NCBI GenBank assembly: GCA_028697205.1
Contig: JAQVFO010000004.1
Location: 1 to 45,241, forward strand
Origin: Candidatus Altimarinota bacterium
Lineage (GTDB): Bacteria > Patescibacteriota > Gracilibacteria > BD1-5 > UBA6164
DNA length: 45,241 nucleotides
Direction of reading: 5' to 3'
Numbering within the stretch: the first letter of the stretch is position 1; each line of letters begins with the position of its first letter. Shown in pieces: positions 21,023 through 27,027 of this stretch. Below the pieces are notes generated by a model, which did no database searches, was not told where the DNA came from, and saw only the letters and a list, made by a program, of their open reading frames with translations. The position numbers and the translations under genes are program-made.

Positions 21023-21057
21023 GTGTTCATAAATGATATTAATAACGTTTGCTTCTA

Positions 21058-21215
21058 TGAGATGTTTTGCGAAGTGAAACGGAGCAAAATTTGGGTGAGG
21101 GGCGAGCCGAGTCCCGAACCGTATATTCCTTGTTATACGCCCCGACGACTGAAAGGAGGAGAGCGCAGCGTGGTCGGAGCGAAGCAGAGAAGTCGGCACG
21201 GGGCACGTCTTTTTT
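21058..21215. repeat. GC-rich structured intergenic element (left of island)
   Basis: A block of roughly 155 bases with well over half G+C by eye in a genome of very low GC. It holds several potential stems: TTTTGC/GCAAAA around 21066-21088, GGGGCG/CGCCCC enclosing GTATA/TATAC around 21099-21145, and CCGAC/GTCGG pairs after that. Short frames inside it on either strand have no protein-like character. It ends in a T-run just before the membrane gene on the minus strand. It looks like a non-coding structured repeat imported with the neighbouring genes. Confidence 0.55.
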
Positions 21216-21231
21216 ATATGAAAAAATTATT

Positions 21232-21588
21232 TTATTGATTTATACTATCCGAGATTATTTGTTGAACATCAACCCCAAATATATTCAAAACCATAAATAT
21301 AACTTGTTTTACGAGCACGTAAATTAACATAAAAATTGCTATAATTATTAATTTTCTTATCCACGGCTTTTGTCTGGAAAGAATAGGAAATTTTTTTCGT
21401 AAAAAATCATTAATTTTTGTATAAAGTTTACCCTTCAGTAAAACAAGCAATAAAATAACAATCCCAATTAAAATAATAAAATATAATGGGATGCCTAATC
21501 TATAAAACAAGAATAGTAACAGGATGAGTGTTAGGATAGAAATATATTTTTTCCATCCCATTTTTTTATTTTCTGCCATATTATTCAT
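21232..21588 (-). CDS. Foreign small multi-pass membrane protein
   Basis: 118 residues with basic ends and hydrophobic helices (about residues 15-32, 34-51 and 75-95). No family recognised. Its five glycines (for example in MGWKK, RLGIP, LIGIV, LKGKL, IFGVD) are all GGN and there is no TGA in the frame, unlike its code-25 neighbours. An AAGGA sits about 12 bases upstream of the ATG, one of the few Shine-Dalgarno-like sites in the window. It lies between two GC-rich structured elements. Both facts suggest import from a standard-code donor. Confidence 0.65.
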   Translation of the reverse strand: MNNMAENKKMGWKKYISILTLILLLFLFYRLGIPLYFIILIGIVILLLVLLKGKLYTKINDFLRKKFPILSRQKPWIRKLIIIAIFMLIYVLVKQVIFMVLNIFGVDVQQIISDSINQ

Positions 21589-21797
21589 AAAAATATCATT
21601 CCTTTTATAATTTTTGCATTTTTAGTGCCCCATGCCGATTGCGCACAACGTTTCAGTATATCTGATGTCCTCCGTAGTTTTAGCGAAGGAGGATATGGGT
21701 CGAGCGAGGGCACGAGTGAGCCAGATATACTGTGTTGTGCGAGGGTGATTTTCTGTAGTGCTAACGGAAGAAAATCAAGTGCAACGACCCCGAAGCG
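21589..21797. repeat. GC-rich structured intergenic element (between island genes)
   Basis: No convincing gene. From about 21624 the DNA turns GC-rich and folds on itself: CGCACAAC...CAGTATATCTG (21639-21662) pairs with CAGATATACTG...GTTGTGCG (21722-21741) over about 19 bp with a small bulge; TCCTCC/GGAGGA make an inner stem; GATTTTCT/AGAAAATC make a third; GGGTCG near 21699 can pair with CGACCC near 21786. The layout resembles a multi-branched RNA or a cruciform repeat. An ORF of about 60 codons can be drawn on + but its composition is that of the structure, not a protein. Confidence 0.5.
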
Positions 21798-21872
21798 TAT
21801 TTTTCAATAATTTTTCATTCCTTATTATTTTGTTGAAGAATTTTATTATTTTATTGGAATTTTTATTTTTTC
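21798..21872 (+). repeat. Left inverted repeat flanking the OLD-like gene
   Basis: Three blocks, TATTTTTCAATAATTTTT (21798-21815), ATTTTGTTGAAGAATTT (21827-21843) and AATTTTTATTTTTTC (21858-21872), recur without mismatch and in the same order, reverse-complemented, at 24046-24121. Spacers are similar in length (11 and 14 here, 13 and 13 there) but differ in sequence. Confidence 0.75.
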
Positions 21873-21924
21873 GTTTTTCTTTTTCCAAGAGGGGTTAGGG
21901 GTGAATTGGAAAAAGAAAAACACC

Positions 21925-23934
21925 TTATTCGCTTTCTTCCGAACTTGGATTTATAATTTCTCTAATTTTATTAAAAATATCTTCAAAAGTATTAAAGTCA
22001 AAATCTTCTATAAACCCACTATCTGTCTCTATTAACTGTGCAAAATCTGATTTTGAAAGGGCTACTGATGTACTTTGTTCCAAGTCTTCTTTTTTGTACA
22101 CCTTCTTATCAATAACACCATTAATGTCTACCTTATTCTGAATTTGTTCAATTTTTGTCTGATAATTTCCCTCTGTGCTATTTCCACTTTTATAAAATTC
22201 ACTTCCCAGAAATAGCCTTCTTCCCTCTAAATTTTCTTTTTTTAAAATACTTTTAGGGTAATAGTGTTCTATTGATATTTTATCACCATAAAACTCTCCA
22301 TTTTTTAATGGTATACAAAAAGCAAAAACATTATTTCCATATTTCTTAAATGATTGATTATCTTTTTCAATATCGTTAATTATCTCTGGAACATCTCTAT
22401 CAAAAATTCCGATAATTTCCCTTGATTGAGGTACTTTGGAGAGTTGTTCAAGAAGCTTTTTAAGGTGTGAATCACTCCAATCCTCAGTTATTTTATAAAA
22501 ATCAACATCTAAATTAGTAATATTCAATTTTTCTTTTGCCTTTTCAATATGCTGTCTATCTGTTTTCCCCTCCGTAATTATCAGAGGTTTTGAACCTTCT
22601 TTTATTTTTGTTTCCAATAATTCATACTTTTCTTTAAATCTCTCGTTTTCTCCAACCATCATTTCATAAACTTCTTTATATAAGTCGTTGGTTGTGGGAT
22701 CAGTCGAAATACCAAGATTATCTAAATCTATTATTTTTGATCTTTCTTGCAATTCTTCAGCCAATCCCATGCTCAAAAATGGAGAGTGAGAACTCACTAT
22801 AAATTGCACATTTTTAAATAGTTTAAAAAGTTTTGGCAAAACTTCTTTTTGTAATTTTATATGGAGATGTTTATCGACTTCATCAATGAGAACAATTCCC
22901 GTGATTTCATCTAACAAAATATTATTCTTATTAGTGTCAGCTTGCCTTAGAAGTTCTCAAAAAACACAAAGCAACGAGGCTTCACCAGAAGATAGATTGA
23001 ATATTGTAGGATATATCTGAAGTCCATCTTCAGCATTTACAATTTGAACTCTTGTCCCACCTAAATTACGTTCTCCTATACCAAATCTTGATGTATTAAA
23101 ACCTTTTGATTTTAAAATTTCTGTAATAATAAAGTTGGTTTTTTCTCTTATGTGAGATTTCAGATGAATGTTTATCTGTATAATGCTATTTATTAAATTA
23201 GATAGTTGATTCTTTTGAATAGGTTCTTGAATGTTTATACTTTCCAAACTTTTCTCAATATCTTCAGTTTTTACATTTAAATACTGGTTATCCAGTACAA
23301 GATCCATAATCCAATTCGCTAGTTGAGGTAATCCAGACAATACTTCAATAGGATTTGGCAAATATCCTGAAAAACCTGATTCTTTTTTAAAATTCAATTT
23401 TATCTTGTAAGGATCGTTTAAATATCCAGGTTGTTCATATCTGTATGCTGGAAAATATGTTATCAAATTATTTCTGAATATTTTTTCAGCCTTTTCTTTA
23501 TTGAAATTAGATGAAACTTTTTTGATATAATTTTCATTTTTTAGATCGTTTTGAACTTGATTAAAAGGAATTTTTTCATCAATAGAAATTGCATTATTAT
23601 ATTCCTCTTCTGTGCAGTTATTTCTAATATCAAGATAGTCAAAAGTTTCTTCACCTAAGTTGAATCTAAGATATACAAATGAGGGCTTGCTCTTATCTAA
23701 ATTGTGAATAGCAGAAGACACTCTATAAAATTTATTTTCTTTCCCTTCATATTCATTTTGAAAATGAGGTCTCGCTATCTCATGAAAAGCATCTACAAGA
23801 TGAGAAAGTATTGTTGTTTTCCCTTTTCCATTTACAGCAGAAAGAACTGAAATTTCATTTTCATAAAAATCTAACTCCAATTTATCAAATGGAGCTCTGT
23901 TTATAAAAATTGCTTTTTGTAGATATATTTTCAT
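21925..23934 (-). CDS. OLD-like ATP-dependent nuclease (AAA ATPase + TOPRIM)
   Basis: 669 residues from ATG at 23934 when one in-frame TGA (22957-22959, codon 326) is read as glycine. ATPase half: Walker A SAVNGKGKTT (32-41), signature LSSGEASLL (314-322), Walker B GIVLIDEVDKHLH (346-358), then FIVSSHSPF. C-terminal TOPRIM: IITEGKTD with E455, and IFDRD with D512 and D514 as metal ligands. This is the domain order of OLD-family nucleases, several of which (including GajA of Gabija) act in phage defence; no GajB-like helicase is adjacent. By my count glycine is about 31 GGN to one TGA, opposite to the host genes, so it was imported from a standard-code donor. TGA falls in VFGELLRQ just after the signature, a place where related ATPases have Gly. 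Confidence 0.85.
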
Positions 23935-24238
23935 AGTCTGTTTCAATAGATTGTAAATATTGTATCTGTTTTCCCTAAATTTTAAATGTCATTTTTTGTG
24001 GAGGAACGAAACAAAAAATATCTGATTATCCCCTCATAAAAATTAGAAAAAATAAAAATTTTATTCCTTTTTTAAATTCTTCAACAAAATTCCTTATTTG
24101 AGAAAAAATTATTGAAAAATATGTCGCACAACTACTCTCTATCAGAAATATAAATTTGATTTAATACTTAAAAGTAATAATATACGAAATATTTCCTATA
24201 GAGAAATAACTAAAAATATTATAATTAAAATCAATAAT
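23935..24238. other. Island right border, non-coding
   Basis: No gene seen. It contains a hairpin TTTTTTGT (23992-23999) with ACAAAAAA (24011-24018) around GGAGGAACG, similar in style to the structured blocks to the left, then the right inverted repeat (24046-24121) and TGTCGCACAAC, which echoes the CGCACAAC of the left block. From about 24135 the sequence returns to plain AT-rich leader before the recombinase. Confidence 0.5.
24046..24121 (-). repeat. Right inverted repeat flanking the OLD-like gene
   Basis: GAAAAAATAAAAATT (24046-24060), AAATTCTTCAACAAAAT (24074-24090) and AAAAATTATTGAAAAATA (24104-24121) are exact reverse complements of the three blocks at 21798-21872. Together the two copies bracket the nuclease gene with its full upstream region. 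Confidence 0.75.
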
Positions 24239-25015
24239 ATGCAAAACTATTTACTTGACCTGGAAAGAGAATTAAAATACAGAAATTATTCACCTAGAAC
24301 TATTGAAGTTTATATAAATTGTACAGAGTATTTTCTCAAATATATAAAAAATGACCTATCAAAAATTTCAAAAGAAACTATAATAGATTTTACTATTCAT
24401 TTACAAACAAAAAATAAAGCTCCAAAGACTATAAATCTCTATAAAGATGCAATTAAATTTTTCTTAAAAGAGGTATTAAAACTAAATCTGGATTTTGAAA
24501 TAAAGCTATCAAAAGAAGCAAAAAAGCTACCAGTAGTCTTATCAAAAGAAGAAATACAAAAAATTCTAGAAAATACAAATAATCCTAAACATAAATTACT
24601 TTTATCACTTTCTTATGCTTCCTGACTCAGAGTAAGTGAGATAATTAATCTAAAAGTTTGAGATATTAACTTAGAAGAACTTACAATTCATATTAAATGA
24701 GCTAAATGAAATAAAGATAGAATTACAGTTTTTTCTGAAAAACTTAAAAATGATTATCTTATAGAAAGTGAGAGATGATGAAAAATTACAGAGAGAACAG
24801 CTCAAATTATTTTTAAAAATGCTTTACAAAAAGCTTGAATAAAAAAAGAAGCAAGTTTTCATAGTTTGAGACATAGCTTTGCTACACATTTGCTTGAAAA
24901 TGGAACAGATATTAGATATATCCAAGAGCTTCTTTGACATGCTAGTATCAAAACAACGCAAATTTACACAAAGGTTGTGAATCCAAATTTAAAAAATATT
25001 ATTAGCCCTTTATAA
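24239..25015 (+). CDS. Tyrosine recombinase (XerC/D-like integrase)
   Basis: 258 residues. A SAM-like core-binding domain at the start ([20 protein letters not shown]) is followed by a catalytic domain with [17 protein letters not shown] (first Arg), KGAKGNKDRIT (beta-hairpin Lys), [16 protein letters not shown] (HxLR), [17 protein letters not shown] (H and the nucleophile Tyr). All catalytic residues R, K, H, R, H, Y are visible. At 258 residues it is shorter than XerC/XerD (about 300), as in archaeal XerA-like enzymes. Eight glycines are TGA and one GGA, so unlike the island beside it this gene is native in code use. It starts 118 bp after the right inverted repeat. It could be the cell's dimer-resolution recombinase or the agent that integrated the island. 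Confidence 0.92.
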
Positions 25016-25023
25016 AATAAATT

Positions 25024-27027
25024 ATGACAATAAAACAAAAAATCCTACAAGAATTACAAAATCCAAAAATGCTAGATCTAAAATTTCTTTTTTCAAAAGA
25101 AGTTTTGGATGTGTCTTTGGAAGTTTTACAAGAACTTCTAGATGAAGAGAAAAAAGATTTTGATGAAATATTGAAACTAACAAATGAAAAAATAACTTTT
25201 GAAACTTTTATGGATTTCTCAAAGTTAGACTTATTTTTTTCACTTTTAAATCACTTGCAAAATGTAAAATCAAGTGATGAAATAAGAAATATAATTGAAG
25301 ATTTTGAACCAAAATATGTAGATTTCGGGAATTATATAGCATATAATAAGAGGTACTATGATATGATTGTTTATTGTAAAAATAATTGTAACTTAGATAA
25401 TGAACAAAAACGTATTTTAGATTTATCAATTAAATCTTATGAAGTTAAGTGAATTAATTTAGAGGAAGAGAAACAAAATAGATTAAAAGAAATAAGTAAA
25501 AGATTATCAGAACTTTCTCAAAAGTTTTGAAATAATCTACTTGATAGTGAAAAAGAATTTAAATATGTTTTTGAAACTGATGAAACTATAAAAGATATTC
25601 CACAAAATGAGCTTGAAGAAGCAAAGATAAAAGCAGAAAAAGAGTGAAAAACATGATATTTGTTTGATTCTTCACCAGCAAGTTATATGGCAATTATGAA
25701 GTACTGTACAGAAAGTGATGTTAGAAAACATTTTTTTACTGAAAAACATAAATTTGCATCAAGTGGTAAGTTTGATAATAGAAAATTAGTTTTAGAGATT
25801 TTAAAACTTAGAGATGAAAAATCACATATCTTAGGATATAAAAATTATGCAGAATTATCATTAGTTTTTAAAATGGCAGATACCCCAGAAAATGTTATAA
25901 AATTAATTGATGAAGTTTCAATAAAAGCAAAAGATAAGGCTGAAACTGAAATAGTAGAATTTAAAAAGTATTTTAACTTAGCAGATTTTAATCCTTGGGA
26001 TTTGGCATATTACAGTAGAATCTACAAAGAAAAAGAATTTAATTTTGATGAAAGAGAATTAAAAAAATATTTTGAATTTGATAAAGTTTTGAACTGACTT
26101 TTTACAATTGCAAATAAACTTTATGGTATAGAGATGAGAGAAGTAGAAATTGATTCCTATTCATCTGATATAAGGTTTTATGAGGTTTACAAAGAGTGAA
26201 AACTTATTTCTTACTTTGTATGAGATTATTTTTATAACCAGGACAAAAGAAGTTGAGCTTGGTGTGATAATATGAGGCCAAAAATTGAATATAAATGAAA
26301 AACCTATATTCCTATTGTAGTAAATGTATGTGCTTTTTTAAATCAGTGAACGGGAAAAACTTTACTTAATTTTATTGATGTTGAAACTATGTTTCATGAG
26401 TTTGGTCATGCTCTTCATGAGATGCTTTCAAAAAGTAAATATAGTGATTTAAGTTGATTTAATGTTGAATGGGATTTTGTAGAACTACCATCACAACTCA
26501 TGGAAAACTGGTGCAATGAAGAAGAATCTTTAAAATTATTTGCAAAGCATAATGAAACATGAGAAGAAATTCCAAAATCTATGCTTGAAACTATGGATAA
26601 ACTTAAAAAGTACGGAACTTGAAATTTTACTTTGAGGCAAAATGAGTTTGCAAGTTTAGATATGCATTTACATAGCAAAGTTGTTCCAGATAATATTGAA
26701 AAGTTAGATGATTTTGTATTGGATTTTATTAATAATTACTGAATTTTTAAAAAAGATAAAGATTATAAAATGTATGCTTCTTTTTCTCATATATTTGATT
26801 GATGATATTGAGCTGGGTATTATAGTTATATGTGGGCAGAAATTATAGAAGCTCAAGTTTGGAGTATATTTAAAAATAAATGAATTTTTGATAAAGAAAC
26901 AGCTGATAGATTTCTAAAAACTATACTTTCAGCATGAACTACAAAAGATGCTTCTATGTTATTTGAAGATTTTGCTGGGGTTTCAATTTCTCCAAATGCT
27001 TTTTTAGATAGAAAAAAGTTTTTGTAG
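25024..27027 (+). CDS. M3 family zinc oligopeptidase (oligopeptidase A/Dcp-like)
   Basis: 667 residues, the size of M3A enzymes. The zinc site HEFGH is at residues 458-462 in [16 protein letters not shown], with the third ligand Glu in [19 protein letters not shown]. Other landmarks are [21 protein letters not shown] and the C-terminal [20 protein letters not shown], which forms the substrate cleft. It cleaves short peptides in the cytoplasm, consistent with recycling or use of scavenged peptides. It begins eight bases after the recombinase and may be cotranscribed. No signal peptide. Confidence 0.93.

Follow-up and report, generated by a model that had tools for sequence, protein, structure and literature searches.

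Two GGN-spelled genes beside an integrase gene

The window analyzed here, the whole stretch of 45,241 nucleotides from a Candidatus Altimarinota bacterium (contig JAQVFO010000004.1), contains a gene for a compact tyrosine recombinase and an island of two genes from which it faces away, one encoding an AAA_21 ATPase resembling the OLD-type nucleases (hereafter the nuclease) and the other a small membrane protein. Very probably, the island represents an array of two cassettes belonging to a chromosomal integron-type platform, and the recombinase is the integrase of this platform. The positions of the features are collected in Table 1.

Open reading frames (ORFs) of at least 150 amino acids (aa) cover 80% of the window under genetic code 25, in which TGA is read as glycine, and 4% under the standard code. 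The glycine codons of the two island genes pooled were 1 TGA and 36 GGN, compared with 647 TGA and 137 GGN in the 45 other ORFs of the window (Fisher p = 6e-25). With a 425-kb sample of the window genome as the background (349 ORFs, TGA representing 82% of glycines), the 673-aa nuclease gene ranked second for GGN bias among 330 ORFs, behind a doubtful 183-aa ORF. The GC content was 27-33% in the island and ~20-27% in its surroundings, and the GC-rich intergenic stretches, at 21040-21215 and 21640-21800, are two attC sites. The original prediction had described positions 21058-24121 as an imported island with GC-rich intergenic DNA, whose genes spell glycine as GGN unlike their neighbors and both stop at TAA, next to a recombinase gene with eight TGA and one GGA. 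These observations were borne out: both stop codons are TAA, the recombinase gene has one GGA and eight TGA from its likely start (nine in the ORF as listed), and the recombination points (24132/24131 and 21046/21045) place the island at ~21040 to 24132, close to the predicted span. The integron-type array itself had been missed; it provides a mechanism of entry and is, in our judgment, the larger finding.

Table 1. Features of the integrase, attI site, and cassette array in the window.
Feature	Position	Strand	Remarks
Tyrosine integrase (P0003)	24239-25015	+	likely start ATG 24239; listed ORF starts at 24098; insert-less family
attI	24070-24194	-	conserved DNA 24132-24194, ending AGTAG/TT (slash, crossover); crossover between 24132 and 24131
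Cassette 1	21649-24131	-	2483 bp; nuclease gene and attC2; 5' GTTGTGC complements attC2 R'' GCACAAC (7/7)
Nuclease (P0001): AAA_21 ATPase, TOPRIM-like C-terminus, OLD/PtuA-like	21925-23946	-	likely start ATG 23934, 669 aa; 1 TGA (codon 330), 31 GGN
attC2	21643-21740	-	98 bp; perfect R box, ungapped L stem, 1:4 internal loop
Cassette 2	21046-21648	-	603 bp; membrane-protein gene and attC1; border rule 5/7
Membrane protein, 118 aa, unassigned family	21232-21588	-	0 TGA, 5 GGN
attC1	21040-21138	-	hybrid of two kinds of site
Inverted repeat, leader arm	24046-24121		inside cassette 1; pairs with trailer arm
Inverted repeat, trailer arm	21798-21872		inside cassette 1; pairs with leader arm

attI, cassette borders, and attC sites

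The attI site lies 107 bp upstream of the integrase start, and the array runs away from the integrase. Eight related genomes were alike over the ~60 bp leading up to a fixed point, where the shared DNA ended in AG/TT, and diverged beyond it; in four of the eight, the contig ended within ~100 bp of the attI point. In the related genome G007, a 99-nt stretch that followed attI in one contig was found again, identical, behind an attC-like site in a second contig, as would be expected if the sampled cells differ by recombination at that point.

If a cassette is excised as a circle at G/TT, its 5' heptamer must complement the R'' box of its own attC, and the first seven bases of each cassette were accordingly compared with the reverse complement of that box. 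Of 36 cassettes, 27 obeyed this border rule exactly, their heptamers being of many kinds, and 29 obeyed it at six or more of the seven positions; 10,000 permutations gave 7.5 on average and 18 at most. Cassettes that relatives have in common were also cut exactly at G/TT, and a 2.8-kb cassette was 98.4% identical between the genome G002, where it follows attI, and G007, where it follows an attC, indicating cassette mobility at the level of genome comparison. An attI beside the integrase, a uniform divergent array, and G/TT borders, by which integrons are recognized, were all found. The cassette shared by G002 and G007, which represent two genera, encodes a type IIG restriction-methylase, with a PDC-S46 gene in G007 (L087:907-5421 and L058:2567-5095).

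Inverted repeats of 75 bp flank the nuclease gene, which could suggest that it came with a transposon or an ordinary genomic island, through transposition or illegitimate recombination. There is no transposase, the repeats are located inside the cassette borders, and other cassettes have different repeats of their own, the mean repeat score being 41 for a cassette's own pair and 22 for mismatched pairs. Such an origin would also leave the border rule and attI unexplained, and the sharing of cassettes at G/TT counts against it. The transposon reading of the repeats was therefore rejected, and we attach hardly any weight to this explanation. Inverted repeats occur in the leader and trailer of many cassettes (also in L086, L154, L155, and L157), where they flank the attC in the circle.

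Returning to the array, attC2 forms the R/L inverted-box hairpin typical of integron sites. The hairpin is strong (fold z of -7.5); the + strand, the bottom one with respect to the genes, gives the better fold. Across attC sites, the paired positions covaried with a score of 0.357, compared with 0.124 for shuffled and at most 0.049 for slid alignments, the alignment having been fitted to the structure. The L stem was an ungapped run of at least 8 bp in 59 of the 65 scored sites, and the same 1:4 internal loop was present in 50. A bulge improved the stem in none of the 65, whereas a one-base bulge was needed in seven of eight class-1 sites; thus, the extrahelical base of integron attC sites was not seen in any scored site. 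No Rfam family fits the hairpins. Because sites of this kind made up the training set of our attC model, R2, other kinds could be under-counted; the model gave no matches on class-1 integron DNA or on the Bacteroidota loci that carry relatives of the nuclease, indicating that R2 is clade-specific and that those relatives are not in such arrays.

An integrase family without I2 and its distribution

The integrase matched the profiles PF00589 (131 bits) and NF040815 (220.1 bits, cut-off 220), and it scored 209 bits with the integron-integrase model TIGR02249, below the cut-off of 265. It has the catalytic residues of a tyrosine recombinase, R134, H223, R226, H249, and Y258 (P0004 numbering) being invariant with IntI1. 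The I2 region is absent, with a gap at model positions 172-235, and seven family members that were aligned to IntI1, together with the members displayed with the tree, likewise had no IntI-specific insert. In a tree of 53 proteins, 40 integrases grouped together (SH-aLRT 94) and were separated from the housekeeping Xer proteins (100); the single class 1 IntI included fell on the integrases' side, on a long branch and with unsure placement. The closest solved structures were XerC-like 4a8e (147 bits) and IntI4 2a3v (143.5 bits). A more IntI-like recombinase (235 bits), with an unrelated insertion, was seen in another Patescibacteria family with attC matches (L170, G181:C5).

The distribution of the platform was surveyed using R2 and the integrase of a relative (G003) as queries. 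Among 242 genomes of the class, both were found in 49, the integrase only in 25, attC only in 24, and neither in 144 (p = 2e-15, uncorrected for shared descent). All 45 listed attC sites on the same contig as an integrase were upstream of it and divergent from it. In a sample of 240 genomes of the phylum, sites were found in 38 and the integrase in 35; outside the class, the two were again associated (p = 2e-10, likewise uncorrected), and 35 of 36 were divergent. Overall, ~30% of the class genomes sampled carry the platform, as do ~15% of those sampled from the phylum.

These results bear on two other roles for the recombinase. It might be a phase-variation invertase acting on the neighboring locus rather than a cassette integrase, as restriction genes are often inverted by a neighboring tyrosine recombinase, and contigs of relatives break beside the recombinase. 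The arrays are, however, in one orientation (45 of 45 sites in the class), and the junctions join different cassettes to attI and not flipped copies of the same DNA, making an invertase barely credible. Alternatively, the cassettes might be moved by a conventional I2-bearing IntI encoded elsewhere, in this genome or in that of another cell, and the compact recombinase would be incidental. Known integrons need I2 (PMC9668308, PMC7790495), and the class genomes with attC matches in which no integrase was detected would fit such an arrangement. The IntI model cut-off was nevertheless reached in none of the 240 phylum genomes and not in the window genome, the compact integrase co-occurs with the arrays and adjoins them, and the attC sites do not have the base that I2 recognizes. 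We accordingly regard a conventional IntI as a very unlikely agent, and the compact integrase family as probably the one that performs the recombination.

In the proposed mechanism, the integrase would act on attI, at 24132/24131, and on the attC hairpin of a cassette circle, recombining the two, and new cassettes would enter beside the integrase in a fixed orientation, with older ones being pushed outward. The platform would not be an integron in the strict sense, as the usual definition needs an IntI-specific domain, and as far as its sequences tell, it appears to work like one.

Several observations weigh against this reading. The integrase has no I2, and shared descent may contribute to the co-occurrence described above. 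The 25 integrase-only and 24 attC-only genomes of the class are unpaired, which may be explained in part by broken contigs and a strict model. Cassette 2 follows the border rule at just five of seven positions, which is consistent with the hybrid nature of attC1, itself a further point: its 5' half resembles a site of the genome G035 and its 3' half (CATCTCATAGAAGCAAACGTT) resembles G007 sites, and it does not fold as a single hairpin. It is probably a fusion of two attC sites that deleted a cassette. Finally, the window integrase is without ~12-14 residues (LGKNILYKEKND) between two KND repeats that are present in all relatives. This copy may be impaired, and the array may therefore be frozen here.

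Cargo genes and the code boundary

The nuclease (669-673 aa) has Walker A, LSSGE, and Walker B motifs and matched AAA_21 with 57.5 bits (cut-off 27); the TOPRIM match was 15 bits, below the cut-off of 23.2. These features suggest an OLD-type nuclease with a role in defense, possibly against phages. Its best matches, at 61% (partial) and 53% identity, were two Bacteroidota loci using the standard code, in a limited pattern scan. Searches of 287 phylum genomes and 212 class genomes gave no close homologue, and no relative was found in viral contigs; plasmids gave only distant partial matches, and a phage search gave human-fecal fragments at 50-53%. Membership in the Septu system was considered and rejected: the PtuA equivalog score was 72.6 bits, compared with a cut-off of 500, and the neighbor is a membrane protein and not an HNH partner. 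The Bacteroidota loci, L051 and L050, place the nuclease gene beside tellurium-resistance-like and type I restriction genes.

The non-coding frame of cassette 1 has different relatives from its gene: class members that use the standard code have cassettes or sites 89-95% identical to this frame. The attC2 site with its flank (~200 nt) was 91% identical to sites in the genomes G338 and G393 and 89% identical to one in G453. The start of the leader, from G/TT, was ~90% identical over 84 nt to that of a cassette in the genome G387, and a 133-nt trailer was 94.7% identical. That cassette carries different genes, and the two codes read it equally well; cassette frames and genes thus appear to have recombined. 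These likenesses suggest that a standard-code class member served as an intermediate host for a cassette. The predicted import from a standard-code donor is therefore supported for the nuclease gene, by the Bacteroidota relatives and the cassette frame, and its closest relatives did not all fall within code-25 lineages. For the membrane-protein gene, import is suggested by its codon usage.

The TGA at codon 330 of the nuclease gene encodes the glycine of CVFGELLRQ, for which L050 has GGA and L051 has GGT. It is likely that GGA changed to TGA after arrival, a neutral change in code 25. This codon also bears on whether the island is an assembly chimera, that is, a piece of Bacteroidota or other standard-code DNA joined into a code-25 contig. 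The codon usage and GC content do differ as in a chimera, but a TGA at a conserved glycine would truncate the gene in a standard-code cell, and the borders coincide with the attI and attC points, whose sites match those of relatives. A chimera is therefore highly improbable. For the integron-type array, a consistent history would be that both cassettes carry genes still standard-code in appearance, the nuclease being of Bacteroidota-like ancestry, and that the nuclease gene, which is safe in code 25 because its stop is TAA, has gained one TGA glycine since entry. A frozen array may have given this TGA time to arise.

Genes that spell glycine with GGN only were also over-represented in other code-25 arrays, with 5 of 27 bounded cassette ORFs compared with 3 of 328 chromosome-sample ORFs (p = 8e-5), and 3 of 25 when the window's own genes were left out (p = 0.005); the counts are small, and the background is from the window genome only. 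In the same genome, outside the window, a Gabija pair at L060:13440-17380 (G000:C13:78440-82380; GajA 929 bits, GajB 791 bits) is GGN-rich, with 7 TGA to 14 GGN and 3 to 26, and has no attC match nearby; it is a second, partly re-spelled import. In the genes of a code-25 relative from another family (L056, G035), glycine is seldom encoded by TGA, in contrast to the window genome.

Relation to known integrons

The platform shares with class 1 and sedentary chromosomal integrons the divergent integrase and array, attI, attC R and L boxes, the G/TT crossover, the border rule, lineage-like attC families, and cassettes with accessory and defense genes. It differs in that the integrase has no I2, the attC has an ungapped L stem, no extrahelical base, and an asymmetric 1:4 loop, and the cassettes often have inverted repeats flanking the gene. 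The integrases are similar in length and fold to XerA and other Xer recombinases, but they form their own clade apart from housekeeping Xer and adjoin attC arrays. The nuclease has the AAA_21 ATPase of the OLD-family and PtuA-like nucleases and perhaps a TOPRIM-like C-terminal region, and its Bacteroidales relative sits beside a type I restriction gene; it differs in being a single gene far below the PtuA cut-off with no HNH partner seen.

Integron integrases are thought to have arisen from a Xer-like enzyme that gained I2, matched by extrahelical bases in attC. I2 recognizes these bases, and the two evolved together (PMC4792948, PMC7790495); the order in which they were gained has been called a chicken-and-egg paradox (Escudero et al, 2016; PMC4792948), and intermediates in the evolution of the integrase are lacking (eLife 2020; PMC7790495). 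Archaeal integrons, also discovered in metagenome-assembled genomes of an unexpected group, have IntIs that keep the IntI-specific domain, unlike the integrases described here (Ghaly et al, 2022; PMC9668308). We found no published report of integrons in Patescibacteria in the literature searched, which covered few subscription journals and no preprints. Searches needing an IntI-specific profile and complete integrons only, such as an aquifer survey (PMC12259885), would miss the platform.

On balance, we lean toward the view that Patescibacteria have a widespread, unreported type of integron, in which the integrase never acquired or has lost I2 and the attC likewise the extrahelical bases, with the strand being chosen by the 1:4 loop. 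It could be a missing intermediate, or hairpin recombination may have been reached here by a separate route; in code-25 members, standard-code genes could use it as a gateway. Such a platform would explain how genes can cross from one genetic code to another; the graded series of cassettes allows the re-spelling of glycine to be followed, and attC arrays with neither I2 nor extrahelical bases make the question of the order of gain testable.

The chromosomal setting of the integrase gene was also compared among relatives. It is followed by an oligoendopeptidase-like gene in the window genome and in G001 (window 25024-27027; L054:16451-18676), and by a tRNA-thiouridylase-like gene in G003 and G022 (L052:3731-4771; L057:930-2129), indicating that the platform occupies at least two chromosomal positions in the family.
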